DNA of 45,565 bases from a virus, in the IMG/VR virus record IMGVR_UViG_3300021197_000724, positions 1-45,565 of that record; one strand, given 5' to 3'. Position 1 is the stretch's first letter. Each line of letters starts with the position of its first letter. The notes beneath the pieces are model-generated. The model made no database searches, had not been told where the DNA came from, and was given only the letters and a program-made list of their open reading frames with translations. A program made the translations under genes and the position numbers. Shown here in pieces: positions 5,343 through 22,748 of the stretch.

Positions 5343-6872
5343 CTAATAATAGTTAGCAATTCGTCTTGGTGTCTGTTCTGTGTAGTCATCATGCTCTAAA
5401 GCAATGAATCCACCTTGCCTGAATCTCAACAATGCCTGAGTCGAAGAATCTACCAAGTCATCGTGATCTCCTACAGGGAAAGATGCAAACTCTTCAATCA
5501 CCTCTTCAGCCCAGCGACGAGCCGGTGCCCAGACAATACCCGATGCAAAAAAGTCAGCGACAGCATTTACACGCGATACTTTGTCATTGCCTCTTGAGGG
5601 TGTGTATTCCGTAACACTGATACCCATTGCTCTGAGTTCATAGATCAATGGCGCACCCGCTGCCTTTGCCTCCACAATAAATGCATCCGGCTCCCAATCC
5701 ATGTACATCTCATAGGCACGTTGCTTCAGTGTGGGAAACTCCATGCGTTCTTTCAAAGCATCAAGAAGGATAATGTTCGGGGCCATACGACCCTCATCGT
5801 TATCCATATAGAAAACGCCCCATGTAGTGCAAGCAGAATAGTCTGCTCGCTCGTGCTTCATAAAGGCGGTATCCCAAGACTGAATTACAAACGATACCTT
5901 GGGTGGATCACGCTCTTCCCAAACTTGCCACCAATCCCGCTTGATAATGGCAGACTCTTCAGATGTGGGCTGCTGTTGGTACTGGGCCTCCCACTTCGAG
6001 ATGGGTAGTTCTGCCTTGAGCTTCTCTAGCTCCTCTACAGGCCAGTATTCAGGCCAAAGAGACCTACCTGATGGTAGTATTGCGGGTAGCTCTAAAACCT
6101 CCCATTCGTCCGTACCGTCCCTCTCAACACTATCTCGCATTATTTGACCGCAAAGATCCTTTTGCGACCAGCGAGTCATCACAATAATGATTGCCCCTCC
6201 GGGCTGTAAACGCTGACGAGGCCCAGAGCTAAACCATTCATGGGTAGAATCAAATACTTTAGGATCGGCTTGTTGCCCCTGTTGTTCTGAGTGGGGGTCA
6301 TCTATAATAAGCAAATCGGCACCACGCCCTGTTACGGCACCCCCAACACCCACGGAGAAGTATTCACCTCCACCTGACACATCAAAGCGACCAGCAGCTT
6401 TAGAGTCAGCAGTTAGGGAGGTTTCGGGGAATATATCTTTGTACTCTTCACTACCAATCAAGTTACGAACCATACGACCAAAGCGAACAGCAAGCTCGGC
6501 GGTGTGGGATGCCATGATGATCTTCTTGTCAGGCATCTTGCCCATAATCCACGCAGGCAATAACCAAGAGGTCAACTGAGACTTGCCCATACGAGGAGGC
6601 ATATTAATCATTAAGCGTTTACATTCCCCACTCGCAACACGCTCAAACTTCTCAGCCATCTTCCTATGGTGCCCACCTTCAATGAAAGCAGGCCATACAG
6701 AAGCACAAAAACACAAAAACTCTTCCTGCGACTTCTCCCTTCGTACCGACATCTCTAACGCCTTCATCAAATCCATCACTTGTTTACGCTCTGAAGCGGT
6801 CATGGCTGCTATGAGATCAGGTGTCAACAACGATTCTATATCAGAAAGCTGTTTGTCAATATCAATAGTCAT
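5343..6872 (-). CDS. Terminase large subunit (packaging ATPase/nuclease)
   Basis: A 509-residue protein with both expected domains. ATPase: Walker A PPRMGKS (residues 92-98), Walker B LLIIDD (187-192) and the coupling-type motif VMTRWS (231-236). RNase H-like nuclease: Asp334 in SWDTAF, Glu401 in FIVEAKAAGAP and the Asp471/472 pair in GDHDDLVD, which together would bind the metals. The length is typical. It would pump DNA into the prohead through the portal and cut the concatemer. It lies 230 nt downstream of the small subunit and has its own promoter-like sequence. Confidence 0.95.
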   Translation of the reverse strand: MTIDIDKQLSDIESLLTPDLIAAMTASERKQVMDLMKALEMSVRREKSQEEFLCFCASVWPAFIEGGHHRKMAEKFERVASGECKRLMINMPPRMGKSQLTSWLLPAWIMGKMPDKKIIMASHTAELAVRFGRMVRNLIGSEEYKDIFPETSLTADSKAAGRFDVSGGGEYFSVGVGGAVTGRGADLLIIDDPHSEQQGQQADPKVFDSTHEWFSSGPRQRLQPGGAIIIVMTRWSQKDLCGQIMRDSVERDGTDEWEVLELPAILPSGRSLWPEYWPVEELEKLKAELPISKWEAQYQQQPTSEESAIIKRDWWQVWEERDPPKVSFVIQSWDTAFMKHERADYSACTTWGVFYMDNDEGRMAPNIILLDALKERMEFPTLKQRAYEMYMDWEPDAFIVEAKAAGAPLIYELRAMGISVTEYTPSRGNDKVSRVNAVADFFASGIVWAPARRWAEEVIEEFASFPVGDHDDLVDSSTQALLRFRQGGFIALEHDDYTEQTPRRIANYY

Positions 6873-7102
6873 GTTGTGCTCACTGTTTACAAAATGGTTT
6901 TAGTAAATATAAAATTTTACGCACTATTTTTGTCAATAATTGTTTTTGGTTTTAGGGGGTGGGTTTGTAAAGTGGGGTGATCGACTGTAGATAATTGTAT
7001 GTATGTGTATGTGCGGGACTCCTGCGCGCTGTGTGCGTGTGTGGGGGTCTGCCGGTGCGTGTAAACGCGCTATGCGTGGGACTCCTAGGCGCATTATGCG
7101 CG
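6873..7102. other. 230-bp gap between terminase genes with repeats; packaging-site candidate
   Basis: No gene is seen here. Besides the promoter, the stretch holds a GT-rich tract (7000-7060), two copies of GGGACTCCT (7014-7022 and 7078-7086) each followed by a GCGC-rich run, and a 13-bp palindrome GCGCATTATGCGC (7089-7101) just after the small terminase stop. A non-coding gap with repeats between terminase subunits is a reasonable place for the site recognised by the small subunit, but nothing proves this. Confidence 0.3.
6908..6936 (-). promoter_or_regulatory. Sigma70-like promoter for the head operon
   Basis: On the minus strand a perfect -35 TTGACA (plus positions 6931-6936) is followed after 17 nt by TTTATA (6908-6913). 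The start site would lie 25-30 nt before the large terminase ATG. The element sits in an AT-rich stretch inside an otherwise GT-rich gap and would drive the packaging and head genes. Confidence 0.65.
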
Positions 7103-7519
7103 TCAGTCCTGCGTTGCGACACGATCACGCGATAGCAATCCGTTTAAACGCTCCAAGATCACCGAAGGTGAGTCGGCATCAGCTCGCACCACTGCCTGTT
7201 GCTCCACATAAAGCCTACTGGCTTTCCCTCTGTGGTGCTCGGCTTGTATAGCAGAGCTATATTGCCCAGCATCTCTGGCCTCATCTCGCAGCGATGCCAG
7301 TGTATCGAGGTGATCCCGTAGGGAAACGGCCCGATCCTCGGCTAATTCAGCGCCCCGCTGATTAATTAAGTCTACGACTTCTGCTTTTTTAACCAACTCA
7401 CTTCCCTTTTTGTCTGGATTGCTGGTGTAACCAGCCATGCGCGCACTCTCTGCCTGTGTACGGCCTTCGGCCACATACCTAGCGAATAGGCGCTCTTTCA
7501 CGCTTACCTGCTTACCCAT
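7103..7519 (-). CDS. Terminase small subunit
   Basis: A 138-residue protein whose N-terminus (KERLFARYVAEGRTQAESAR, then MAGYT) matches the helix-turn-helix region of small terminases ('F...y...G.s...A...aGY'), followed by a helical oligomerisation part (about 55-110). It would recognise the packaging site and feed DNA to the large subunit. It is first in the leftward head module. GTTTAAAC sites lie 17 bp upstream of its start (7536) and inside it (7142). The ribosome-binding site (CAGGGA) is weak. Confidence 0.75.
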   Translation of the reverse strand: MGKQVSVKERLFARYVAEGRTQAESARMAGYTSNPDKKGSELVKKAEVVDLINQRGAELAEDRAVSLRDHLDTLASLRDEARDAGQYSSAIQAEHHRGKASRLYVEQQAVVRADADSPSVILERLNGLLSRDRVATQD

Positions 7520-7589
7520 TACGTCCCTGCAACCCGTTTAAACTCGCCAACTTAACCGAAGGTTAAAAAACCCAGTTGGAAAAAACTAG

Positions 7590-7619
7590 TTGACAGTTTA
7601 AACGAAATCTGGGCATAGT
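7590..7619 (+). promoter_or_regulatory. Early rightward promoter overlapping a GTTTAAAC site
   Basis: TTGACA at 7590-7595 and CATAGT at 7614-7619 (4 of 6 matches to TATAAT) are separated by 18 nt. The spacer begins with GTTTAAAC (7596-7603), directly against the -35 box, where a bound protein would block RNA polymerase. Transcription would start near 7626 and enter the structured leader. It lies in the divergent gap between the head genes and the early genes. Confidence 0.55.
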
Positions 7620-7625
7620 GATTTG

Positions 7626-8010
7626 GCATCGACGGATTGACCGCTCAACAGGTCAGCTTACCGTCAACCGGATGCGGGGCGGCAGCTTAATGCGACTGAA
7701 TGGGTGTAGGCCACCTCCGGTCAGGTACCGGTGTTTCGATCTCACGGCGGATCGAGACGTAGCAAGCTGGAATTGTGTGCAAGGCAATTCTGCGAAGGCT
7801 TGGGAAAAGGATGTCGGGGCGGTGGAGTCACCTCCAGATGTCGGGAGACATCTCTCTGGAGGCCAAGATCGTCAATGGCGTAAACCGGCTAGGTGTGAAC
7901 GCAGATCGGGTTGGAGTCCGTGACGCACCAGAACGATACCGAAGGTATCTGGACTAGACGATAGATTTACGAATGTTGTGCATACAACAGAGAGCATTCA
8001 ACGAATGCTT
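7626..8010 (+). ncRNA. Long structured leader RNA, family not recognised
   Basis: About 385 nt without a convincing gene, able to form a chain of strong helices when read rightward: GACGG/CCGTC (7631-7635 with 7661-7665) enclosing TGACC/GGTCA (7638-7642, 7651-7655); ACCGGA/TCCGGT (7667-7672, 7716-7721); TCGATC/GATCGA (7736-7741, 7750-7755); CAAGC/GCTTG (7763-7767, 7798-7802) enclosing GAATTG/CAATTC; CCTCCAG/CTGGAGG (7831-7837, 7856-7862) with ATGTC/GACAT inside; AGTCC/GGACT (7915-7919, 7951-7955) enclosing GATACC-GAA-GGTATC; GTTGT/ACAAC (7975-7988); AGCATTC/GAATGCT (7993-8009). It starts just after a promoter and ends before the first early gene, so it could be a regulatory leader, a processed sRNA or an antitermination element. 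The one open frame (7618-7923) has an ATT start and an Arg-rich product with no look of a real protein. Confidence 0.55.
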
Positions 8011-8038
8011 TCGATTGTGTTCACAAAGGAGAAAACAC

Positions 8039-8245
8039 ATGAGCGATCAATCAGGCAATCACGTTAATTTTTTGCAAATCAGCGACGAGCTTTACTTCGA
8101 CTCGGAGACCCGAGAGATGGTGCAGCAACTCACAGATTACATACACGATGCGATGTCGGATCGGGGCTACCTTGTAGACAAGGTAAATTGGCAGGCAACG
8201 ATAGAAGTTACCGTTACTGGCAAACATGTACATGAGTACGAGTGA
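8039..8245 (+). CDS. Small acidic early protein, unknown
   Basis: A 68-residue protein beginning MSDQSGNHVNFLQISDELYF. The start was chosen because CAAAGGAG lies 10 nt upstream of this ATG; an upstream ATG at 7973 would place 22 residues over the leader hairpins. It is the first gene after the structured RNA. I recognise no family. Confidence 0.65.
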   Translation: MSDQSGNHVNFLQISDELYFDSETREMVQQLTDYIHDAMSDRGYLVDKVNWQATIEVTVTGKHVHEYE

Positions 8246-8255
8246 CTACAACACA

Positions 8256-8277
8256 AGGACATTCGCAAGAATGTCTT
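8256..8277 (+). promoter_or_regulatory. Leader hairpin repeat (second copy)
   Basis: GACATTC-GCAA-GAATGTC (8258-8275), extendable by G-T and A-T pairs, followed by TTTGCTTGTGTTCAC. The hairpin at 7993-8009 (AGCATTC-AAC-GAATGCT) has the same layout, and the 10-nt tail TTGTGTTCAC is identical in both. Each precedes a GGAG ribosome-binding site. The loop differs while the stem is kept, which suggests a selected RNA element such as a processing or stability site. Confidence 0.5.
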
Positions 8278-8319
8278 TGCTTGTGTTCACTACATCAATC
8301 GCAACAAAGGAGAACTGCT

Positions 8320-8928
8320 ATGCAGTCATACACAACGAGAGAAGAATGGTTACAAGCTGCGCTTGTTTTACTGTTTGAGATGGTTTTTGCCAGTGCTGGT
8401 ATCTCACCCGACGCTTGGCAATCCCGGCGCTACAGAGTCACCTGCGGATTCCCTATCGGGTATCGTGGGTCGAAGACCGGCAAGGTCGTGCTAGGTCAGG
8501 CATTCGATGCAAGCGTCAGTGCCGATGGCACCATGGAGGTTTGCATCAACCCCGTCATCGATGAACCCGTCGAGGTTCTTCGAGTCCTGCTACATGAATT
8601 CATTCATGTTTGGGCCGGTATCGAATGCGGTCACCGAGGTGAGTTTGCCCGAATCGCCAAAGCCGTAGGCTTTACTGGCCCTATGACACAGACTCCCGCA
8701 TCGCCAGCTCTGCTGGACACACTCACCGAGATCTCCGAGGTGCTGGGGGTTTACCCCCATGCCAAGGTCGATCCATCGCTTCGTAAGAAGCAAGGCACTC
8801 GTATGCTCAAACTGCTATGCAGTGAGTGTGGCTTCACCGCCAGAGTGTCAGCCAAATGGCAATCGAAGATTACCCCCGAGTCAACATGCCCAGCATGCCA
8901 CCTCGCTGGAACGCTAGTCGCTGACTAG
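8320..8928 (+). CDS. SprT-like zinc metalloprotein
   Basis: A 202-residue protein with the SprT/Spartan layout: HEFIH (His92, Glu93, His96) with a likely third zinc ligand at His105 in GHRGEFARIA, then a C-terminal zinc ribbon of two CxxC pairs (Cys167/170 and Cys190/193). Cellular relatives include proteases that degrade DNA-crosslinked proteins. The start follows GCAACAAAGGAG; earlier in-frame starts would cross the leader hairpin. As an early gene it may clear DNA-bound host proteins, but the substrate is unknown. Confidence 0.8.
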   Translation: MQSYTTREEWLQAALVLLFEMVFASAGISPDAWQSRRYRVTCGFPIGYRGSKTGKVVLGQAFDASVSADGTMEVCINPVIDEPVEVLRVLLHEFIHVWAGIECGHRGEFARIAKAVGFTGPMTQTPASPALLDTLTEISEVLGVYPHAKVDPSLRKKQGTRMLKLLCSECGFTARVSAKWQSKITPESTCPACHLAGTLVAD

Positions 8929-8971
8929 CTTCCAACATCATCCGTTTAAACGCAACAAAGGAGAACATTTC

Positions 8972-10081
8972 ATGTTCGATCATCGTACCACACTTGATGC
9001 TTCGCATCACCAACGTCTTAACAAAATCTGCAAGGTTCTCAATGACCTACGGTCAGAGGGCGATCTTGTGACCCCAGCGCACCGCTCTAAGCTGGCGCTG
9101 CTGGCTACCATGTACCGCATGTCAGCCACGATGCCCGAAGAGGCGAAGGTCAGCCTATGGCTGTATGGCCCCAATGCTGGGGCTGCTACGCTGTCTCAGG
9201 ACGAGATCGAGTCTATGTCAGCCAAGGTGATCGAAGATCTCCGAGGCGACATCGAGGATCTCAAGGCACTGGTCGCATCAACGCAGACCATCACCCACCA
9301 GATCACCATCAACGATGGCGATCCGATCCAAATCAAAGGTCGAGTTCACGAAGTGTTTCACTCTGTCCTCGATTGGGTGGCTATGGCAGAGCCAGTGTAC
9401 ATCGTCGGCCCTGCTGGTTCTGGTAAGACCAGCATCGCAAAGCAGATAGCTGAGGCGCTGGACACTCCGTTCTACTGCTACGGCGCTATCGGTCAGGCTT
9501 TCGAGTTCCTAGGCTACAACGATGCCAACGGCAACTACGTTGAGACCGAGTTCTACAAAGCGTTTAAACATGGCGGTCTCGTCTTGATGGACGAGATGGA
9601 CGCAAGCAACCCCAACGCTTTGCTGTCTCTCAACGCTGCTCTAGCGAATGACTTCGCTAGTTTTCCCTGCGGTCTGGTCGAGCGTCACGCTGATTTCCGA
9701 ATCATTGCATCAGCCAACACCTTCGGTCACGGCGCATCGGCTCAGTATGTCGGACGCAATCCAATGGATGCCGCGACGCTTGACCGCTTCGCTTATATCC
9801 CAATGGGATACGACGAGGCGCTAGAGCGCAGCATCGCTGGCAATGATGCATGGGTTGATCTGGTACAGGCCATCAGGGCACAGGTCGAGCATCACAAGAT
9901 GCGCTTTGTGGTAAGCCCAAGGGCTTCTATCAAGGGCGCTAAAGCACTGGCTGCTGGTATGCCATGGCGCTCTGTGATGGACGCTCTGATCTTCTCCAAG
10001 GGCTGGAGCGACACCGATAAGACCAAGGTCTTAGACGGTGTTGATTTCACGATCATTGACGCACTACAGGAGGCAGCGTAA
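8972..10081 (+). CDS. MoxR/CobS-type AAA+ ATPase
   Basis: A 369-residue protein with a helical N-terminal region (1-120) and one AAA+ domain: Walker A GPAGSGKTS (about 147-155), Walker B GGLVLMDEMD (about 200-209), a sensor-1 region IIASANTFGHG (about 250) and DAATLDRF for the arginine finger. It is closest in style to the CobS/NorQ/MoxR group, ATPases that remodel a partner carrying a vWA domain. The next gene overlaps its stop in TAATG and may be that partner. The leader is GTTTAAACGCAACAAAGGAG. Confidence 0.8.
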   Translation: MFDHRTTLDASHHQRLNKICKVLNDLRSEGDLVTPAHRSKLALLATMYRMSATMPEEAKVSLWLYGPNAGAATLSQDEIESMSAKVIEDLRGDIEDLKALVASTQTITHQITINDGDPIQIKGRVHEVFHSVLDWVAMAEPVYIVGPAGSGKTSIAKQIAEALDTPFYCYGAIGQAFEFLGYNDANGNYVETEFYKAFKHGGLVLMDEMDASNPNALLSLNAALANDFASFPCGLVERHADFRIIASANTFGHGASAQYVGRNPMDAATLDRFAYIPMGYDEALERSIAGNDAWVDLVQAIRAQVEHHKMRFVVSPRASIKGAKALAAGMPWRSVMDALIFSKGWSDTDKTKVLDGVDFTIIDALQEAA

Positions 10082-10905
10082 TGACCAAGGTTATCGAGTA
10101 CAACGTAAGCTGGGACGAGTGCATGGCTGACATGCACCGCGAACCCAACGAGGGCTGGGATGGCCTAGCCAGCACCAAAAAAGAAGGACGCGATGCCAAG
10201 GAATTCTACGGCACCCGCACCTTTGGTGATGCAGTGCAGACTGCGATCAGCGGCTGGGATGAGGGGCGCGATGCTATCGGCTCCGGCGTTGAGTTTGCTA
10301 AGGCAAAGCAGGCATCGTTTAAACGACCTGACTGGGAGTACGGCGTAGCCGGTCAGCGAGCTTGTGTCCCAAGCTACTGTGCTGGTGTCCCGAATCACAT
10401 GGTCTGGATGGACGATACCAGCAACCGCAACGCTATGCCCATCGTCAAGATCTACGCAGACATCGGAGCCACATCGAGCACCGATGCCAGCGCGATGATC
10501 CGTAAAGGCTCTGCCATCGTCGCCCTGATCGACCAGATCGAGCAGTCTGGTCAGCGTGTGGAGTTGATTGCCTGCCAGCTATCCGAAACCGTGGGCTACG
10601 ATCACGACGAGCAGCGCATCTTCATCACGGTCAAACGTGCTGACGAGGTGCTAGATCTTGACCGCATCGCCTTCGCTTTGGCACATCCATCCATGTTGCG
10701 CCGAGTTTGCTTCCGCATCATGGAGTTCACCTACTCAGGATATGTGGGCGGCTATGGCAGAGTGAAGACGTTCAATGACCTGCCTGCCGATGCCATGTAC
10801 ATCCCCCCGATGTACGGCGACAAGGGCTACTACACGATGACCGAGGCGCTGGATACAGTGATGGGACATTGGAACGAATGCGCTGCCAACACCGAGGCAG
10901 CGTAA
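10081..10905 (+). CDS. Putative partner of the AAA+ ATPase with degenerate vWA-like core
   Basis: A 274-residue protein coupled to the ATPase gene by a TAATG overlap. The segment VKIYADIGATSS, followed by SAIVALIDQIEQSGQRVELI, resembles the first strand, metal-site loop, helix and second strand of a vWA domain, but the usual DxSxS is altered to D-x-G-x-T-S. Known MoxR-family ATPases pair with vWA proteins, and that context drives this reading. The N-terminus is rich in Trp, Asp and Gly. It may instead belong to a phage family without vWA kinship. Confidence 0.45.
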   Translation: MTKVIEYNVSWDECMADMHREPNEGWDGLASTKKEGRDAKEFYGTRTFGDAVQTAISGWDEGRDAIGSGVEFAKAKQASFKRPDWEYGVAGQRACVPSYCAGVPNHMVWMDDTSNRNAMPIVKIYADIGATSSTDASAMIRKGSAIVALIDQIEQSGQRVELIACQLSETVGYDHDEQRIFITVKRADEVLDLDRIAFALAHPSMLRRVCFRIMEFTYSGYVGGYGRVKTFNDLPADAMYIPPMYGDKGYYTMTEALDTVMGHWNECAANTEAA

Positions 10906-10909
10906 GAAT

Positions 10910-10925
10910 TACGCAAATATGCGTA
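10910..10925 (+). terminator. Small hairpin after the ATPase pair
   Basis: A perfect inverted repeat TACGCA-AATA-TGCGTA five bases after the stop at 10905. It has no T-tract, so it may be a weak terminator, an mRNA-protecting hairpin or a protein site. A GTTTAAAC site follows at 10928. Confidence 0.3.
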
Positions 10926-10957
10926 CTGTTTAAACGCAACAATAGGAGGCAATAGCC

Positions 10958-11083
10958 TTGAAGTATTCAAACCCGCCGCCGCCATTCACTTCACATGAAG
11001 GGCGGATCATGGGTACGGCTAATGATGTGGAGTGCGCCTTGGGAAGTCCGACCAAGGGTAAGCGACAAAGATGCGACCTGTAA
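10958..11083 (+). CDS. Small ORF with TTG start and strong ribosome-binding site
   Basis: A 41-codon reading frame starting MKYSNPPPPFTSHEGR. It is supported by the composite leader GTTTAAACGCAACAATAGGAGG seven bases upstream, which otherwise precedes real genes here. The four-proline run and basic C-terminus (KGKRQRCDL) give no family. Without this frame, 260 bases between genes would be empty behind a strong translation signal. Confidence 0.45.
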   Translation: MKYSNPPPPFTSHEGRIMGTANDVECALGSPTKGKRQRCDL

Positions 11084-11106
11084 AGCCTCGGCACTCACCA
11101 TACTTG

Positions 11107-11134
11107 TTGACAATCAACACCACCATGCTACTTT
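11107..11134 (+). promoter_or_regulatory. Early promoter, repeat family copy 1
   Basis: TTGACA, a 16-nt spacer and TACTTT, followed at once by AGTAACAC and then the leader CGCAACAAGGAG. The block TGCTACTTTAGTAACAC is identical in the promoter at 12452-12480. It would serve the gene at 11165. Confidence 0.65.
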
Positions 11135-11164
11135 AGTAACACACATCGCAACAAGGAGAAACCC

Positions 11165-11383
11165 ATGCGAAACCAATACGGCAACACCCCACAAGAGCAA
11201 GCTCGATCAGAAATACTGACCTTGCTCCATCAAATGGCGCTGACAGACGAAACCGAAAGCATTTACTTCGATTATGAAACTCCGTCGTTCATCCGCGCCA
11301 AGCGTAAGCACTTCGGCAAACTCATGCACAAACTGGCTAACGAGTGGGGCCACGATGTGGGAGGGAAGATACTCGACGTTTAG
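11165..11383 (+). CDS. Small early protein, unknown
   Basis: A 72-residue, mostly helical and charged protein starting MRNQYGNTPQEQARSEIL. It has the leader CGCAACAAGGAG and a promoter of the repeated type 30 nt upstream of the leader. I recognise no family. Confidence 0.65.
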   Translation: MRNQYGNTPQEQARSEILTLLHQMALTDETESIYFDYETPSFIRAKRKHFGKLMHKLANEWGHDVGGKILDV

Positions 11384-11388
11384 TCGAA

Positions 11389-11403
11389 ACCGCCTATGGC
11401 GGT
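11389..11403 (+). terminator. Hairpin between small early genes
   Basis: ACCGCC-TAT-GGCGGT, six perfect pairs with a three-base loop, six bases after the stop of the preceding gene and followed by CTGTGT. The U-tract is poor, so it may only slow polymerase or protect the mRNA end. Confidence 0.35.
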
Positions 11404-11480
11404 CTGTGTCGGTTGGCTACCGGCGCACTGATGAGACAAGCCGTTTAAACGCAACAAGGATATATAATTTAGGAGATGCG

Positions 11481-11714
11481 ATGACAATTTACGATCACTA
11501 TTTGAAGAATCCTCCGATCAGCGACTTGGGGTATCCCGACAGAGGCTCGACTGCGCGTCATGCTTTCTGGAACGGCTACGCCGGTAGCCCTGCTCAGGGA
11601 TGCCCTAACAGTTCTGCTCGACTCGCTTGGAGAGCTGGTAAAAAAGCACACAAAGACAACAATCAAGAATGTCTTTCCGCTTTCAACAAACATCTGAACG
11701 CAACTAGGAGATAG
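11481..11714 (+). CDS. Rmf/CrpP-like small protein
   Basis: A 77-residue protein whose middle part, AFWNGYAGSPAQGCPNS followed by ARLAWRAGKKAH, matches the pattern of ribosome modulation factor and CrpP-type proteins: aromatic-x-x-Gly ... Gly ... Cys-Pro ... Trp-x-x-Gly. Rmf dimerises and silences ribosomes. A phage copy might act on host translation, but relatives in phages are untested as far as I know. The start follows TTTAGGAGATGCG; the frame has no other good start nearby. Confidence 0.5.
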   Translation: MTIYDHYLKNPPISDLGYPDRGSTARHAFWNGYAGSPAQGCPNSSARLAWRAGKKAHKDNNQECLSAFNKHLNATRR

Positions 11715-11718
11715 ATCT

Positions 11719-12183
11719 ATGGACATAAAAGACTGGACAAACGAGGTCAAGCTGAAGACCTTTCACCACTACCAAGCAGCTCGCACTTGGGCAAAGCAAA
11801 GCAGATTTCTCGCTGATGATTTGCATCGCAAACACGGCGATGCCCACCTGACCGGACAGCACCCGCTGTCTGATTTCCTGTACCCCAACGTGCGGAACGC
11901 AATCCTTGAGGCGGAGCAGATCTCAATGAGCACCCAAGGGCATGGTTTAAACGCTAAAAAGCGATTTCAGTTGGCGGTTTTCGTGGGCCACATCTCCGAT
12001 GCTGTTGCACACCTTACGTTTGTGGAGAACAGCATTGGTCGGCGCGAGGGTAAAGACCTGATCCAATACTTGGATAAATGGCGCGAAGCAGAAATCCATC
12101 TCATAGATGAGATACTTGTGGCGATTGAGCAACGTATCACTGACAAGTCCCCTCACGTGACAACCTTGTATCTTAGTTTTTAG
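11719..12183 (+). CDS. Early protein, unknown, helical
   Basis: A 154-residue protein with leader CGCAACTAGGAG. It looks all-helical with many His, Lys and Glu residues; an internal FVGHISDAVAHLTFVEN segment may be buried. It contains a GTTTAAAC site at 11945, read as Gly-Leu-Asn. I recognise no family. Confidence 0.6.
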   Translation: MDIKDWTNEVKLKTFHHYQAARTWAKQSRFLADDLHRKHGDAHLTGQHPLSDFLYPNVRNAILEAEQISMSTQGHGLNAKKRFQLAVFVGHISDAVAHLTFVENSIGRREGKDLIQYLDKWREAEIHLIDEILVAIEQRITDKSPHVTTLYLSF

Positions 12184-12196
12184 TGGAGGTAGAGAG

Positions 12197-12418
12197 ATGA
12201 GTTTATTTTGGGAAACATTAGCTGCGGTGCTCCGCATAATCAGCTACCTGCTGATGACAATCACGTTCTTATGGGCAGGGATCTACCTCACCCACGGATA
12301 CTACACCGGCCTGCCAAACATACACTGGTCGTTCAGCTTCATCGGCCCACTGCTGATTGTGAACTCATTCGGCTGGGTGGCGGTGATGCTGCTGGACTTC
12401 AAGATGTTGAGACCCTGA
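12197..12418 (+). CDS. Small two-helix membrane protein
   Basis: A 73-residue hydrophobic protein with two likely transmembrane helices (about residues 8-30 and 46-66) and few charges, ending KMLRP. The ribosome-binding site is GGAGGT. It is an inner-membrane protein of unknown role in an early gene block, possibly acting on host membrane functions. Confidence 0.55.
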   Translation: MSLFWETLAAVLRIISYLLMTITFLWAGIYLTHGYYTGLPNIHWSFSFIGPLLIVNSFGWVAVMLLDFKMLRP

Positions 12419-12451
12419 CGCACTACGTCAACAACATGATTGCACTGGGGG

Positions 12452-12480
12452 TTGACAACACAATCCCAGTGTGCTACTTT
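12452..12480 (+). promoter_or_regulatory. Early promoter, repeat family copy 2
   Basis: TTGACA, 17-nt spacer, TACTTT, then AGTAACAC and CGCAACAAGGAG. It shares TGCTACTTTAGTAACAC exactly with the copy at 11107. It reads into the 62-residue protein and the larger gene after it. Confidence 0.65.
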
Positions 12481-12509
12481 AGTAACACTCGCAACAAGGA
12501 GATAGAGTG

Positions 12510-12698
12510 ATGAGATATGTAGATTTAACCGGCCCCGATGGAAACGCATTCGCATTGATCGGCATGGTGTATGAGATCTGCGAAGAGATAGATCGCAACC
12601 CTAACCGCATCGTGAGAGACATGAAATCAGGTGACTATGAGAACTTGGTTGAGGTGTTTAAACGAGAGCTTGAAGGTCATGTTGAGGTGGAGGATTAG
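12510..12698 (+). CDS. Small acidic early protein, unknown
   Basis: A 62-residue protein starting MRYVDLTGPDGNAFALIG, rich in Glu and Asp. The leader CGCAACAAGGAG fixes the start; a GTG one codon upstream is an alternative. Similar short proteins with a 'dl.gp.GNaf.i' opening occur in many phages, function unknown. GTTTAAAC occurs at 12656 as Val-Phe-Lys-Arg. Confidence 0.6.
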   Translation: MRYVDLTGPDGNAFALIGMVYEICEEIDRNPNRIVRDMKSGDYENLVEVFKRELEGHVEVED

Positions 12699-12700
12699 GC

Positions 12701-13216
12701 ATGGAGGTGTACACAGACAAGGACTTCATCTTTGAAGAGGTGCCTATGCCAAGGCGCACCGTCGAGCAGATGATACCGATCATCGAGAAGAATGCCCCCG
12801 CCGTTTGGTCTGATGCCCACATCAGGCAAAACGCCGAGGTGTTGGCGCAGGAGGATGCTGAGTCCAAGTGCTACCTGTCACCCATGTTCCAAGTAGTGCG
12901 GCGCGTCCTGTGGGATGAGCAGCATGGCTTTGAGGGCAACACCCCAACCTACCTATCATTCAAACGCATAGACCGCGAGCCGCTTGGCGATTGGAGGGCC
13001 AAGCAACGCATCAAGAATGCCGTCCTAGGCGATCACTGGGAGGGCGTTGAGTTATATCCAGCAGAGGAGCGGCTGGTGGATACAAGCAATCAGTATCATA
13101 TGTTCGCATGGGAAGGGATCTTCCCCATATACCTGTTCAACAGCCGCGAGGTTTACTCCAAAGAGTACGCCGAGGAGTTGAACAAAGAGCTTGGAATGAA
13201 AACCAAGCAACGATAA
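12701..13216 (+). CDS. Conserved phage protein (DUF7694-like), unknown function
   Basis: A 171-residue protein in which DWRAKQRIKNAVLGDHWEGV is followed by ELYPAEERLVDTSNQYHMF, a pattern I associate with the DUF7694 group of phage proteins. No catalytic motif is evident. It follows the previous stop by only 2 nt. The family name is from memory and unverified. Confidence 0.55.
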   Translation: MEVYTDKDFIFEEVPMPRRTVEQMIPIIEKNAPAVWSDAHIRQNAEVLAQEDAESKCYLSPMFQVVRRVLWDEQHGFEGNTPTYLSFKRIDREPLGDWRAKQRIKNAVLGDHWEGVELYPAEERLVDTSNQYHMFAWEGIFPIYLFNSREVYSKEYAEELNKELGMKTKQR

Positions 13217-13225
13217 CCACCTACA

Positions 13226-13263
13226 GCCGTGTTATGTGTACCAGTGGTGATGCATGACACGGC
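13226..13263 (+). terminator. Long imperfect hairpin in intergenic gap
   Basis: GCCGTGT (13226-13232) pairs with ACACGGC (13257-13263); after one mismatch ATG pairs with CAT, closing a loop of about 13 nt. It lies in the 82-nt gap before the next gene, whose leader starts with GTTTAAAC at 13275. No T-tract follows, so the role may be a terminator, an operator or an mRNA end. Confidence 0.35.
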
Positions 13264-13298
13264 AATTGGAAACTGTTTAAACGCAACAAGGAGCTGCT

Positions 13299-13706
13299 AT
13301 GCAGACAGAGATAACGATACTTCCATCCAACGTGATGCTTTCGTGGACATTTGATCCAAACGGAGCATACACCTACATGGACAAGCACGGAATGGTGCTT
13401 TCCGCAGGGTTCATACCCGACTTCTTCCTCGCAGGTATTGAGGAAGGAACTGATCTGGACAGTGTGTCCAAGATCATGGACGAGAACTACGGGTTCGGGG
13501 GGTTCAACGAATACCCTTGGCCCAGCACCATAGGGCCGCAGAGCCGCCTCATAAGCTCGTATGAGGAAGACCCCGACCTAGACCCTATCCTCATCATGAG
13601 GGCGCGCAGTCAGTCCGACATGGATCTGGAGTGCATCGTGTACGAGGCAGGGGTCATCGCCCTTCGGGACGAAGAAGGTAACTCAAAAGTAGCGAGGTTC
13701 GACTAA
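13299..13706 (+). CDS. Early protein, unknown
   Basis: A 135-residue acidic protein with alternating beta-prone and helical stretches. Its leader is the fused element GTTTAAACGCAACAAGGAG. The stop overlaps the next start (TAATG). No family is recognised. Confidence 0.6.
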   Translation: MQTEITILPSNVMLSWTFDPNGAYTYMDKHGMVLSAGFIPDFFLAGIEEGTDLDSVSKIMDENYGFGGFNEYPWPSTIGPQSRLISSYEEDPDLDPILIMRARSQSDMDLECIVYEAGVIALRDEEGNSKVARFD

Positions 13707-14077
13707 TGAATGGCATCGAAGAAAAAATCGTGAGCAGGTTTGTCCGAGGCTGGGATGGCAAGCTGGCGAACACGGAGTCGCATGACAACACGCTGTACCT
13801 GCATGGCAATGCCATCGCTTGGCGCAACGACGAGACAGGTGAGGTGTGGATCACCAACGCTGGATGGCACACCAAAACAACACAGTCTCGTTTAAACGCA
13901 GTGCTGCAATCACTAGGTGTTGAGGGCCGAGTCTTCACAAAGAAGGGTCGGCAATACCTAGAAAGACGGGAGGATGATGAGATGGTCACCCACCCGATGA
14001 CACAATGGATAGAGGTGCGCTCGCACCAGCTATCCGAAACTTTGGCGCAACTACAGGAGAAGGTATCTCATGGATGA
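13706..14077 (+). CDS. Conserved small phage protein, unknown
   Basis: A 123-residue protein with the segment LYLHGNAIAWRNDETGEVWI followed by TNAGWHTKTTQSRLNA. A 'hGN.Ia......I...GW.T.TT..RLN' pattern recurs in phage hypothetical proteins I have seen, always without a function. The Arg-Leu-Asn codons carry a GTTTAAAC site at 13890. The gene is coupled on both sides by overlaps. Confidence 0.6.
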   Translation: MNGIEEKIVSRFVRGWDGKLANTESHDNTLYLHGNAIAWRNDETGEVWITNAGWHTKTTQSRLNAVLQSLGVEGRVFTKKGRQYLERREDDEMVTHPMTQWIEVRSHQLSETLAQLQEKVSHG

Positions 14078-14351
14078 GATCACAGAACAAATACACCGCA
14101 TGGTCAAAGAGACTGAACGACACGCACAAGACTTACTTGCCGATGTGAAAGACCCGCATGTCATGCTTCATGCAGTCTACGGACACATCTCCCGCGAGAT
14201 CGTTAAGACCGTGAGAGACATGGACATTCCGCTCGATCTTCAGACAAAGATCATGTGGTCTTTGATTTTGGTGCTAGAACGAGAGGTCACGAGACATGAG
14301 ATCAACATTGTCATGGACAGCGACAAGCAGATGGAGACGATCAAGCACTGA
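14070..14351 (+). CDS. Helical early protein, unknown
   Basis: A 93-residue protein rich in His, Glu and Asp and probably all-helical, overlapping the previous gene by 8 nt. The GGAG in ACAGGAGAAGG lies 12 nt upstream. It shows a hydrophobic segment IMWSLILVLE near residue 70, but is not clearly membrane-bound. Confidence 0.55.
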   Translation: MDEITEQIHRMVKETERHAQDLLADVKDPHVMLHAVYGHISREIVKTVRDMDIPLDLQTKIMWSLILVLEREVTRHEINIVMDSDKQMETIKH

Positions 14352-14352
14352 A

Positions 14353-14393
14353 GGTACGTCTTGCGCCCAAAAGGGTACGTCTTGCGCCCAAAA
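14353..14393 (+). repeat. 21-bp tandem duplication
   Basis: GGTACGTCTTGCGCCCAAAA occurs twice, at 14353-14372 and 14374-14393, with one base between. It lies in the non-coding start of the 14352-14406 gap. The identity of the two copies suggests a recent duplication or a tandem protein-binding site. Confidence 0.85.
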
Positions 14394-14406
14394 TTGTAAG
14401 ACAGGT

Positions 14407-14517
14407 GTGTTAGTCGCGCTGCTTGTTGCGGCGTTTGGGTTGGCACATGAGATTGATTTTCGAGAGCAGTGCGGGAGAGATCCCGCCTGTGCCTCACAGC
14501 ATTTGGAGACACAATGA
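14407..14517 (+). CDS. Possible 36-residue signal-peptide-like protein
   Basis: A GTG-started frame with a hydrophobic N-terminus (LVALLVAAFGLAHEIDF) and two cysteines in a short polar tail. Its TGA overlaps the next ATG as ATGA, the coupling style used across this window. The ribosome-binding site is weak. It could be a small exported or membrane peptide, or chance. Confidence 0.35.
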   Translation: MLVALLVAAFGLAHEIDFREQCGRDPACASQHLETQ

Positions 14518-14684
14518 AACTCAAAGAGTTATCAAAGATTGCCAAGGATCTTGGCGAAGAGAAGATCATAAAGATGATCGAGAAAGAAACAGCGAAGCTG
14601 AGAAAGCGTAACGATGGGATGGTCAAGGTCGCAGACCTAGCAGACAATCTCATCGCTGAGATAAGGAGCAGAGACAATGGGTGA
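14514..14684 (+). CDS. Small charged helical protein
   Basis: A 56-residue Lys/Glu-rich helical protein starting MKLKELSKIAKDLGEEKI. The start has TTGGAGA upstream and overlaps the previous frame by ATGA. Its stop overlaps the next gene (ATGGGTGA). No family is recognised. Confidence 0.55.
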   Translation: MKLKELSKIAKDLGEEKIIKMIEKETAKLRKRNDGMVKVADLADNLIAEIRSRDNG

Positions 14685-15090
14685 TGTAGTAGATATGCAG
14701 GGAAACACCTTACGCGAGAGCGTGACGCAAGAACCCATGCGAGATCCTGATCGAGTGCTGATGCAACCACACTCAGATGTGTTCGCAAGGCTTGAACAAT
14801 TTGCGCTCACTGCTAACTGCGAAAGCCACCTGATCGAATACTTCAGGGACAAATCTTGTTTAAACGGCTATGTCACTGGTTGTCTCAGGCGGTTTGCCGA
14901 GGCTGATTACGGGACGCTGAACGAAGAAGACATACGGGAGAACGAAGAGAACCTGCGCTCTGGTCAGATGATGATCGGGGTGTACCCCTTCGATGAGAAC
15001 CCGCAGGCAGGCAACCTAGATCTGCGTACCTATCTGATCCTCGATGCTGGTCACGAAACCCTGACCATGCTGATGCCGGAGGACTACTGA
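14677..15090 (+). CDS. Early protein, unknown
   Basis: A 137-residue acidic protein with AAGGAG upstream, overlapping the preceding gene by 8 nt and the next by one base (TGATG). It contains a GTTTAAAC at 14858, read as Cys-Leu-Asn-Gly. The C-terminus (TYLILDAGHETLTMLMPEDY) is beta-prone. No family is recognised. Confidence 0.6.
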   Translation: MGDVVDMQGNTLRESVTQEPMRDPDRVLMQPHSDVFARLEQFALTANCESHLIEYFRDKSCLNGYVTGCLRRFAEADYGTLNEEDIRENEENLRSGQMMIGVYPFDENPQAGNLDLRTYLILDAGHETLTMLMPEDY

Positions 15091-15515
15091 TGGACAAGCC
15101 TTGGATAGATGCAGCCATGCACATGCGTGAGCAAGGCAAGAAGCTGCAAGACATCGCAGATGTTGTGGGCGTGGCCCCGTCCACAGTACGCAACGAGCTT
15201 CGCTCTCACATGGGTGTCAGCAAGTACGATGAAGTGAAGCGGTATGTTGTTGATTTCAATAAGTCAGAGCGTACCAAGCGAATCAAAGAATCACTGCGTT
15301 TAAACGAGAAACCTGCACAGATCGCTGATCGAGAAGGAGTTAGTAGGCAGTACGTCTACTTCCTCAAGTGGAAGATCAACGAGGAAGTTATCAAGGCAGT
15401 CGATCACCTTGGCGACAAGGACTACATCGACGATAAGGTCGGCATCTTGCAGACACAGGAGCAGCGCAACGAAACGATCCGTGAGATCGAGGAGATGCTG
15501 GGCCAGAAAATATAG
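15090..15515 (+). CDS. Protein with two helix-turn-helix units
   Basis: A 141-residue basic protein with two HTH-like stretches: KKLQDIADVVGVAPSTVRNE (about residues 18-37) and KPAQIADREGVSRQYVYF (about 74-91). Both show the 'I A...gvs...V' spacing of HTH recognition helices. It is likely a DNA-binding regulator or DNA-organising protein. Two DNA-binding units suit recognition of inverted repeats, so it is one candidate reader of the GTTTAAAC sites. Confidence 0.65.
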   Translation: MDKPWIDAAMHMREQGKKLQDIADVVGVAPSTVRNELRSHMGVSKYDEVKRYVVDFNKSERTKRIKESLRLNEKPAQIADREGVSRQYVYFLKWKINEEVIKAVDHLGDKDYIDDKVGILQTQEQRNETIREIEEMLGQKI

Positions 15516-15543
15516 TTGACATTCCTGTCAGCTATGGTATGTT
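15516..15543 (+). promoter_or_regulatory. Early promoter, repeat family copy 3
   Basis: TTGACA, 16-nt spacer, TATGTT, then AGTAACAC and CGCAACAAAGGAG. It is the third member of the family seen at 11107 and 12452, with a different -10 but the same AGTAACAC start region. Confidence 0.65.
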
Positions 15544-15571
15544 AGTAACACGCAACAAAGGAGAGCGTAAA

Positions 15572-15772
15572 GTGAAATCAATAGACAAACAAATCAACGA
15601 ACTGAGGCAGGCTTTAGCGGCTGCTACAACGCATTGTTCAGCCCTAAAGATGGTTGAAGCAAACATCAAGGCAGAAAACATTGGTGGTATTAAAGAATCA
15701 TATGAGCTAACCATCGGGCTGGAAGAAAGCCTTAATCGCGCACTGGATATACTCAACGGAGAAGACGTATGA
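15572..15772 (+). CDS. Small helical protein, unknown
   Basis: A 66-residue helical protein. The GTG start at 15572 was chosen because CGCAACAAAGGAG ends 10 nt upstream; an upstream ATG at 15539 would lie inside the promoter. It overlaps the next gene by ATGA. No family is recognised. Confidence 0.55.
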   Translation: MKSIDKQINELRQALAAATTHCSALKMVEANIKAENIGGIKESYELTIGLEESLNRALDILNGEDV

Positions 15773-15960
15773 CTTTGAAAGAAGTTACCTACAAAACCGC
15801 AGCCGACGGCAAACCAGTGGATCGCAGCGTGAAAAATATTGCACTGACCGATCAGGAGATACTGCTGATTCTCAACACGTTTCGGCGAATACCTTTTGAT
15901 TTAGAACAGGAGCTTGAACACGCTCTCAACGAACATCCCGACACGATCTTTGAAATCTAA
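15769..15960 (+). CDS. Small protein, last of the rightward early block
   Basis: A 63-residue protein starting MTLKEVTYKTAADGKPVDR. It is coupled to the previous gene by ATGA, and a strong hairpin follows its stop. No family is recognised. Confidence 0.55.
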   Translation: MTLKEVTYKTAADGKPVDRSVKNIALTDQEILLILNTFRRIPFDLEQELEHALNEHPDTIFEI

Positions 15961-15966
15961 ATTAAC

Positions 15967-15982
15967 GGGGGCTACGGCCCCC
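15967..15982. terminator. GC-rich hairpin between converging operons
   Basis: GGGGGC-TACG-GCCCCC, six perfect pairs with a four-base loop, sits in the 28-nt gap between the ends of two converging genes. The symmetry suits a bidirectional terminator, although neither side has a long U-tract. Confidence 0.6.
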
Positions 15983-15988
15983 ATCAAC

Positions 15989-17695
15989 CTACCCGCTCAT
16001 CTTCACAGGTGAGCGGTAAGTCCCATCGGTATAGTTGTATTTCAATTCAACACAACCAACCCTCCCGCTCTGTTTAAACCTAATCTTCTTCACATGAATC
16101 CGAATGTCATCGGAACCCTCCGTGAAATCCCTTTCCACAATCAAAATGTTATCCGCTTTGTTATAGAAGTTTGCTGATCCAGCAATGTCGTATGGCTCTG
16201 GCACAGGGAACGAACCGTCTTGGTTCCTTCTCAGCTTCGCAGGGTGCGCCACAAGGAAGATCGCGCACTCGTTGGCTGCTGCCCACCGCTTTAATGTTGC
16301 GAGCATCTGGGACACATACTCGGTCTCTGTCCACCCGCTTGGTCTGCGATGCTCGAACTCGTTGTACGGATCGAGGATCAACCCGCGCACGTTTGGATAT
16401 CGCTGCACACAAGCAGTCGCATTCTCCAGACACCAATCCACAGTGGGTGCCTCATCGTCTGAGCGTATCCAGTAGTAGTGGCTACCGATAAATCCTACCG
16501 CCTTGCCCCACTCCTCATGGCTCATCTTCTGCCCAGACTGCGTATCCCACGCAGGTTTGCGTATGTACTTAGCAGCCAACTTGTTGATGTGCTCATCAAC
16601 TGGATTCTCAAACGAGCAAACCGCGAATCTCCAGCCATGCTCTGACGCAAGGTTTAAACAGATCTGATCCATGAATTCTGATTTGCCAACGCCCGGAGCG
16701 CCGGAGATTATGTTTAGCTCACCAGCCCTCACCTTGTAATTCCAATCCATCGCAGTAATCCCTGTCGAGATTCCTGTCTTCACCTCACCATTCAATAGAG
16801 CAAACGCATCATCGGCGTAGGCTTTCGTTTCATGCAATGCCTTCAAGGGCCACGGCTCTGCCGTTTCGACCAACTCTCGCAGGCGTTCCTTCCCGTACCC
16901 AATCAGCACATCATTCGGATCTTTGCATCCCTCGTCCCACTCAACCCGCCAACACCTGTGCCTGCCTAGCCTACGCGCAAGCTCATTGCGCATAGCTATG
17001 CCCACGGAATCCCCGTCCGTGAGAAGCACGATCCTCTTAAAACCATTTAGATCACCGTTCAACTCGTCAATCCAACTGAGCTTCTTGTCGCTCGCACCAT
17101 CAGGTACGCTGATGACGTTGCTCAGTCCCGCCTCTAGGCAGGTCAACGCATCTACCTCACCTTCCGTGATAATCAGATGTGGTTGATCGGTATCCACCAT
17201 GTTCCAGAGATACGGCAAGCGGTGCCCGTCCTTGATCTGGCTGAACTCCTTGTCTTGTGTGCGAAATTTCACATTGATGGTCTTGCCATCCTTGTCTCTA
17301 TGCACAAACGCGATTGCTTTCTTCGTCTCCCCACCTATGAATGCCTCGCCGGTCTCTACCCCAGCCATGTCCAGCGTGGCCTCGGAGATCCCTCGATTGG
17401 CAAACCACTTCACTACCCCTTCGCTCAACTCATTCAGATCAGGGATCTTTGGAACCTTCTTTTCCGCCTTCTGTTTAAACGGACTTTGCATTGTATTTCT
17501 CCAGACGTTGCCCTCCCAATCACAGTGATGGCAGCGCCACTGCGCCCCCTCCCCATCGATGGACATGCTCAGGCATTTTTCGTGTTTGTTTTTTGCGCGT
17601 GTATCGCTGCATGACGGGCACAGAATCTTGCTCTGACCCTCGCGCAGATCGCGGGAGGCAAACCCTAGGGTTGCCAACTCATCGTAGAAGCCCAC
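15989..17695 (-). CDS. DNA primase-helicase (T7 gp4 type)
   Basis: A 568-residue protein with all parts of a fused primase-helicase. N-terminal zinc finger: Cys26/Cys29 (CPSC) and Cys55/Cys58 (CHHC). TOPRIM: Glu178/Glu180 in ITEGEVDAL and Asp227/Asp229 in LLTDGDS. RecA-like helicase: Walker A GAPGVGKS (332-339), a Walker B-like RGLILDPYNEF and the conserved HPAK stretch near residue 490. It would unwind DNA and lay primers at the phage fork. It ends a leftward operon with two nuclease-type genes upstream. Confidence 0.93.
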   Translation of the reverse strand: MGFYDELATLGFASRDLREGQSKILCPSCSDTRAKNKHEKCLSMSIDGEGAQWRCHHCDWEGNVWRNTMQSPFKQKAEKKVPKIPDLNELSEGVVKWFANRGISEATLDMAGVETGEAFIGGETKKAIAFVHRDKDGKTINVKFRTQDKEFSQIKDGHRLPYLWNMVDTDQPHLIITEGEVDALTCLEAGLSNVISVPDGASDKKLSWIDELNGDLNGFKRIVLLTDGDSVGIAMRNELARRLGRHRCWRVEWDEGCKDPNDVLIGYGKERLRELVETAEPWPLKALHETKAYADDAFALLNGEVKTGISTGITAMDWNYKVRAGELNIISGAPGVGKSEFMDQICLNLASEHGWRFAVCSFENPVDEHINKLAAKYIRKPAWDTQSGQKMSHEEWGKAVGFIGSHYYWIRSDDEAPTVDWCLENATACVQRYPNVRGLILDPYNEFEHRRPSGWTETEYVSQMLATLKRWAAANECAIFLVAHPAKLRRNQDGSFPVPEPYDIAGSANFYNKADNILIVERDFTEGSDDIRIHVKKIRFKQSGRVGCVELKYNYTDGTYRSPVKMSG

Positions 17696-22009: not shown

Positions 22010-22479
22010 TGAAAGGCGAAGATATAGCAGAGAGCTTTGAAGCAAAGAAGTATGCGTATCGGCAAACGAAGGATGGCATGGTGCTGTCCTTTGTTCTGCA
22101 TCCTGATGATGTGCCAAAGGAGATGGCTATCGCTCCCATCGGTCAACGATACATGGTTGCCTGCGCTCAGATAGATGACCATGAGAATCCAATAAGGCCA
22201 AGGGCAACCACAGATGCAGAGAAGGCTTTGGCTAGGGCCAACTTAATATGCAGAGACGAGTCGTACATCCAATGGGCAAGGATGAACTACTACCAATGGG
22301 TTAACCCCACATATCCCCATCAAATTGCGGATGAAACGCTAGAAGACGAAAAGTATGCAGCAGAGGTCATTAGATTTATCTGCGGCATCGAATCTCGATC
22401 AGAACTGAAGACCAACCCGGAAGCCAGAGAGCGTTTAAACGAGCACTTGAAGCTATTCGAGAGTGAGGTGAAAGCGTGA
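22009..22479 (+). CDS. Conserved phage protein, unknown
   Basis: A 156-residue protein with LSFVLHPDDVPKEMAIAPIG followed by QRYMVACAQID in its N-terminal third, a pattern seen in phage hypothetical proteins beside recombination genes. It starts one base inside the previous stop (TGATG) and ends overlapping the XRE gene. A GTTTAAAC at 22433 encodes Arg-Leu-Asn-Glu. Confidence 0.6.
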   Translation: MKGEDIAESFEAKKYAYRQTKDGMVLSFVLHPDDVPKEMAIAPIGQRYMVACAQIDDHENPIRPRATTDAEKALARANLICRDESYIQWARMNYYQWVNPTYPHQIADETLEDEKYAAEVIRFICGIESRSELKTNPEARERLNEHLKLFESEVKA

Positions 22480-22748
22480 AGACTTGGTACACAGAGAAGC
22501 TGCGATCCATGAGGGCAGATCAAAATCTGTCCTTGCAGGAGCTTGCGGATAAGTCAGGCATGAATCGCGGATACATCAGCCAGATAGAGTTGGGCAAGAG
22601 AAAGCCCAGCTTTGAGGCTGTAGAGACTATCGCGGGTGCCTTGGGGGCCAAGATATACATACTGCTAGAAGCGCCAGAAGCGCCTTCTTCTGCCTCTCCG
22701 CGCAACAAGAAGCCCGTATCCATAGCGAGTAGATTTTGGAAACAATGA
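22476..22748 (+). CDS. XRE-family (Cro/CI-type) regulator
   Basis: A 90-residue protein with the XRE helix-turn-helix LRSMRADQNLSLQELADKSG, MNRGYISQIELGKRKPS and a third helix FEAVETIAGALG (residues 9-60), then a short basic tail without peptidase or sensor domain, so more like Cro than CI. The GTG start overlaps the previous gene. XRE dimers bind short palindromes, so this is the first candidate to read GTTTAAAC; that link is speculative. Confidence 0.85.
   Translation: MKTWYTEKLRSMRADQNLSLQELADKSGMNRGYISQIELGKRKPSFEAVETIAGALGAKIYILLEAPEAPSSASPRNKKPVSIASRFWKQ

Follow-up and report, generated by a model that had tools for sequence, protein, structure and literature searches.

A conserved structured RNA family directly downstream of a phage early promoter

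Introduction

What occupies the interval between the early promoter of a phage and its first early gene, if no protein seems to be encoded there? In an IMG/VR virus record of 45,565 bases, analysed here over its full length (the window), an earlier note made from the letters alone had described positions 7626-8010 as a structured RNA of unrecognised type, possibly a new phage ncRNA class or a long leader acting in antitermination. We asked whether such an RNA is real, where it ends, whether it belongs to a described family and what it may do for the phage. Known systems offer different models. The put RNA of phage HK022, about 70 nt with two stem-loops, is transcribed just downstream of the early promoter and brings about RNA-only processive antitermination acting over 10 kb (PMC9378689), GOLLD and ROOL are large phage RNAs without known function (PMC12286853), and for phage ICP1 a noncoding transcript of ~800 nt has been reported to reach high abundance (PMC7567579).

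Results

The locus and its neighbourhood

The structured RNA, present in one copy in the window, is the opening element of the rightward early block, and the leftward block beside it carries the small terminase, large terminase and portal genes (Table 1). The proteins most similar to the large terminase, at 52-57% identity, come from phage 023Pt_psg01, phage DSL-LC04 and the Pelagibacter phages HTVC027P and HTVC023P. Neither a match to the RNA nor a close relative of the terminase was found in the genome collection searched, and the DNA of the window region and the leaders of two relatives had no match among the annotated phages searched; the related contigs compared below are metagenomic fragments. 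ARAGORN detected no tRNA in the window. The late block contains a single frame of 3013 aa (25247-34288, minus strand). The SprT-like gene downstream of the RNA probably starts at 8299 or 8320.

Table 1. Positions of the features at the early operon head of the window
Feature	Positions	Strand	Evidence
Early promoter, TTGACA-18-CATAGT	7590..7619	+	Hexamers and spacing conserved in relatives
GTTTAAAC palindrome in promoter spacer, candidate operator	7596..7603		Copy excess; present in promoter of relatives
Structured RNA body of 346 nt at the start of the early transcript	7626..7971	+	87 pairs, 31 of them with both partners changed; no reading frame conserved
5' hairpin: outer stem P1 (7631-7635/7661-7665), inner stem P2 (7636-7642/7651-7658)	7631..7665	+	Stem variants across lineages
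P3 hairpin, GGGUG-UAGGC-CACCU	7702..7716	+	Nearly invariant in all lineages
P4 hairpin	7717..7731	+	CCGGU/ACCGG, CCGAU/AUCGG, CUGGU/ACCAG, CUGC/GCAG, CCCCA/UGGGG across lineages
P5 hairpin, conserved 8-nt loop U-N-ACGGCG	7732..7759	+	Covarying stem; loop retained in distant lineages
P6 extended hairpin, lineage-specific insertion	7763..7802	+	5 pairs changed on both sides
Linker AAAGGAUGUCGG	7806..7817	+	Identical in L211-213 and L251/252/256
P7 (7818-7823/7868-7873) closing P8 (7831-7842/7847-7862), with GCCAA at 7862-7866	7818..7873	+	P7 variants
P9 domain: long closing stem, inner hairpin 7935-7949, 3' ACGAUA element	7879..7971	+	Helix covariation
Separate hairpin with weak U tail, following the RNA and preceding the first ribosome-binding site	7976..8026	+	Sequence differs by clade, hairpin kept
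First early gene, 68 aa	8039..8245	+	Swapped for other genes or missing in relatives, RNA kept
SprT-like metalloprotease-like gene	8242..8928	+	phrog_6361; SprT-annotated relatives; nearest conserved gene

Covariation reveals a conserved non-coding RNA

Compared with shuffled sequences, the folding energy was only marginally better for 7626-8010 (z -1.62) and for 7626-7971 (z -1.20), reaching z -2.71 when the extra hairpin was included (7626-8030). Energy by itself is weak support; what decides the matter is covariation, by which related marine phages preserve the fold. The RNA is retained in some 19 distinct viral contigs related to the window, and 18 distinct full-length sequences, including that of the window, share 70-94% identity across it. 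In the consensus fold of these sequences 87 pairs are formed, with 98.6% of cells able to pair, and 31 of the 87 pairs are changed on both sides, a count that tallies sequences and not independent events. Shuffling the partners left 15.9 +/- 1.5 such pairs, sliding the 3' strand 2-5, and shuffling the alignment columns at most 9. For a coding control we took SprT from these genomes, which gave 2-4 on either strand and is a fair match, its mean identity being 81-88% versus 86% for the RNA. The consensus energy was -86 kcal/mol on the plus strand, -76 on the minus strand and -50 to -65 for the coding controls. The region does contain a frame of 101 aa, but no reading frame stays open across the relatives, as indels of 1-25 nt break all of them, which agrees with the earlier view that no credible protein is encoded here.

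The perfect hairpins of the region were counted as well. Seven of them (5-7 bp, loops of 3-8) lie in 7626-8010 compared with a mean of 2.3 per 385 nt, and a count of seven is reached in 6 of 452 segments of that length. Among the seven are the two whose loops had been noticed by eye, one with GAA (GATACC-GAA-GGTATC, 7935-7949) and one with GGGA (7836-7853). The neighbouring coding sequence around 8501-9185 has more perfect hairpins, so that this density is not peculiar to the region. The longer nested helices were upheld by the comparison. As to its extent, the RNA indeed begins at 7626, but the conserved part stops at 7971, and what follows is a separate hairpin. We conclude that 7626-7971, on the plus strand and sited where the main early promoter would start its transcript, almost certainly represents a conserved structured non-coding family, as judged from the alignment, and that this family is not in Rfam.

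Anatomy of the RNA

Across members the RNA body measures 277-362 nt and comprises about a dozen helices, and it has many conserved unpaired segments over ~200 nt. P1 and P2 were assigned, and the helices compared across lineages, by hand, this comparison being used instead of a single MAFFT alignment, which misplaces the linker around P6 in the distant lineages. P1 reads GACGG/CCGUC in the window, GGCCAAGC/GCUUGGUC in L212, ACUG/CAGU in L251 and ACAG/CUGU in L256, while P2 is GACC/GGUC or GGGC/GCCC. The loop of P5 is UNACGGCG. P6 is missing in L212 and reduced to a tiny CAGC-GAA-GCUG in L251, P7 occurs as GGCGGU/AUCGUC, GGCGUU/AGCGUC, CUCUGU/ACAGAG or ACUGG/CCAGU, and 10 pairs are changed on both sides in the closing stem and inner hairpin of P9.

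Several candidate elements were discarded. A long-range helix proposed by RNAalifold (7629-7633/7813-7817) is invariant and without support, and the local outer stem P1 is preferred. Pairing of the loop of the 5' hairpin (CAUC) with the linker (GAUG) as a pseudoknot was not supported, as the loop becomes CAAC in the window group and in L211/L213 while GAUG stays unchanged. AAAGGAUG was dropped as a start codon, the frames not being conserved.

The AAAGGAG ribosome-binding site lies 3' of the RNA and of the separate hairpin. Hairpins with a CATTC..GAATG core stand ahead of early genes in the window (7976-8026 and 8254-8279), and different but analogous hairpins precede nearly every gene in the intergenic regions of freshwater relatives (L036-L039). 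These intergenic hairpins are possible sites of RNA processing or insulation.

Homologues in distant lineages and comparison with described families

Two further sets of relatives, L211-213 and L251/252/256, whose SprT proteins are 70% and 55-57% identical, respectively, keep the core of the RNA, consisting of P3-P5 with the ACGGCG loop, the linker, P7-P8 and GCCAA. The letters of their helices are different and the pairing is preserved. A P3-P5 covariance model built without L251, L256 and L031 recovered all three at 36.6-40.7 bits (E 3.6e-07 to 3.2e-06), and among 67 loci the next best score of this model was 16.6 bits, with no other above 17. The window scores 86.6 bits with covariance model R1 which, together with its promoter-proximal position, places it in the family as we propose to define it by the P3-P4-P5 core. 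Searches with short patterns were less useful: a pattern match in L007 was a chance occurrence in coding sequence, and matches to TGCAAGGCAA-N-GAAGGC were mostly due to chance.

The covariance models of Rfam 15, including those of GOLLD, ROOL, RNase P RNA and group I introns, gave no gathering-level match in the window or in seven relatives, and with permissive filters nothing appeared at E<=10 in 7560-8060. The results support an RNA family outside all described families, with homologues in three diverged lineages, in keeping with the earlier suggestion of a new phage ncRNA class. The kind, a structured phage RNA or leader, is already known; the family itself is new. The UCGACGG string at the 5' end of the window RNA is reminiscent of the 5' region of tmRNA (SsrA), a lead only. 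It is not kept in L212 or L251, and ARAGORN and Rfam revealed no tRNA-like end, tag-peptide frame or model match. The earlier impression by eye that tmRNA, RNase P and group I introns do not fit agrees with these searches.

The promoter, its palindrome and a candidate regulator

The promoter directly ahead of the RNA had been correctly noticed. Its two hexamers, with the 18-nt spacer and an RNA start 5-9 nt further on, recur in nearly all members, the distant L212, L251 and L256 among them, and in every member with upstream sequence the RNA follows a TTGACA-18-N6 promoter at this distance on the operon strand. The GTTTAAAC palindrome, which sits in this promoter in 15 of 18 tabulated members, is the commonest 8-mer of the genome, with 40 copies in the window versus 0.67 expected and 3 for the runner-up 8-base palindrome. 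Copies occur within genes, between genes and in the RNA promoter (for example at 7142, 7536, 7596, 8944 and 43409), and relatives such as L035 and L037-L039 have them at equal density, unlike L033 and L042-L044. The pattern is reminiscent of the stoperator networks of mycobacteriophages (PMC9283540). The early promoter is probably under the control of a GTTTAAAC-binding regulator. A 90-aa helix-turn-helix regulator of phage repressor type is encoded at 22476-22748 on the plus strand and is a candidate for the binding protein.

A constant position ahead of changing genes

In the 18 tabulated members the RNA is followed by the 68-aa gene, by a gene of 70-82 aa, 49 aa or 89 aa, or directly by SprT, and it always heads the early operon. 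Since the first downstream gene varies and the RNA is constant, the RNA serves the operon or itself and not one gene. In every contig examined it kept to the early promoter and to the operon strand. In L214 and L218 (SprT identity 65% and 61%) the promoter lies 38-72 nt ahead of the SprT gene with no leader between them, thus such an operon can do without the RNA.

Other leader families, B1, B2, C and D, occupy the same site ahead of SprT in L033, L222, L225, L228, L241, L247, L255 and L039, and none of them was matched by the covariance model of the window family. B2 (16 sequences) has a consensus energy of -73 versus a minimum of -29 in 40 shuffles and 14 both-side pairs versus a maximum of 6, and D (5 sequences) has -42 versus -27 and 13 pairs versus 6. 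The energy of B1 (7 sequences) is -45 versus -29 in shuffles, where its antisense strand also exceeds the shuffles; C comprises two distinct sequences only. By these comparisons the leaders of the other relatives are unrelated to the window RNA, and at least two of them clearly covary. The terminase-SprT intervals of L032 (=L222) and L033 (=L227) are near-identical up to the promoter, carry wholly different leaders and reconverge at the hairpin, a pattern that looks like the exchange of the leader as a cassette.

Discussion

Its placement makes the RNA, very probably, the 5' leader of the early transcript. For its action we tentatively favour a cis-acting leader that would modify RNA polymerase. 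According to this model, the RNA would be transcribed as the 5' portion of the early transcript and fold behind the polymerase; contact with the elongation complex would be made by the P3-P4-P5 cluster together with the linker and the P7-P8 core, either alone or with a host Nus-like factor, and the polymerase would then pass pauses and terminators along the long early operon. A cis role is the simplest explanation because the site is fixed while the RNA sequences change, and the suggestion of a long antitermination leader in the earlier note fits the invariant site right after the early promoter. Counting against the model are the leaderless relatives and the only mild excess of terminator-like sites in 6700-16000 (16 versus 7.7 +/- 3.2, both strands). 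The put RNA, which acts through the beta' zinc-binding domain of RNA polymerase to overcome terminators, is likewise copied directly from an early phage promoter and heads an early operon, and we count its independence of any phage protein at the early promoter as common ground. However, the window RNA is about four times longer, has many more helices than two and no similarity to put, so that position alone fits, and the length range of the family against ~70 nt (PMC9378689) speaks against a put-like element. That the window RNA works like put is a hypothesis, and membership in the put family is not supported.

The main rival, which we consider possible though doubtful, is an RNA acting in trans. 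It would be cleaved or freed from the early transcript, with the hairpin at 7976-8026, which separates it from the first gene, as a possible site, and would act early as an RNP or decoy on a host machine such as the ribosome, RNA polymerase, a nuclease or a defence system. Its large size and conserved unpaired segments would suit such a role, as would its retention with any first gene and its accessory-like absence from some relatives with the same operon; yet a trans-acting gene would be expected to move, whereas this RNA keeps to the early promoter and its strand and has no terminator of its own. GOLLD and ROOL are likewise large, elaborate and covariation-supported, but they measure ~660 to >800 nt and are typically near tRNA islands, and the window contains no tRNA.

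A leader for the stability or translation of early mRNA, providing ribosome standby, RNase protection or riboswitch-like sensing, would also sit 5' of the operon with a hairpin and a ribosome-binding site next to it. We regard it as improbable given the size of the RNA, its indifference to the change or loss of the first gene and the fact that no covarying alternative fold sequestering the ribosome-binding site was seen. The distance of ~105 bp to the divergent small-terminase gene could suggest an element working at the DNA level, such as a replication origin or packaging site, or a packaging RNA like that of phi29, which is also encoded near packaging genes. This seems very unlikely: the changes keep pairing over a 346-nt multi-helix fold that is better on the plus strand, no packaging RNA model of Rfam matched, and this phage encodes an ordinary terminase with a small and a large subunit. 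Least credible of all is a missed gene, to which the 101-aa frame and a conserved AUG within AAAGGAUGUCGG might point, because the frames are broken in relatives.

Beyond the single family, one can speculate, with considerable reserve, that in a large group of aquatic phages the main early promoter is separated from the first early gene by a dedicated 'RNA slot'. The slot would either be empty or carry a large structured RNA from one of several families that are not related to each other (the window family, B1, B2, D and possibly C), and these RNAs would be exchangeable RNA-only modules specifying early transcription or host takeover. If so, this would be a new kind of RNA-based early switch, and RNA control of early phage transcription would be far more diverse than the lone example of put. 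The list of known large structured phage RNAs is short, and the best described of them are without an established function. The family presented here has a defined promoter, boundaries and a conserved core; it probably helps the phage to run or protect its early genes, and its position makes this role directly testable.
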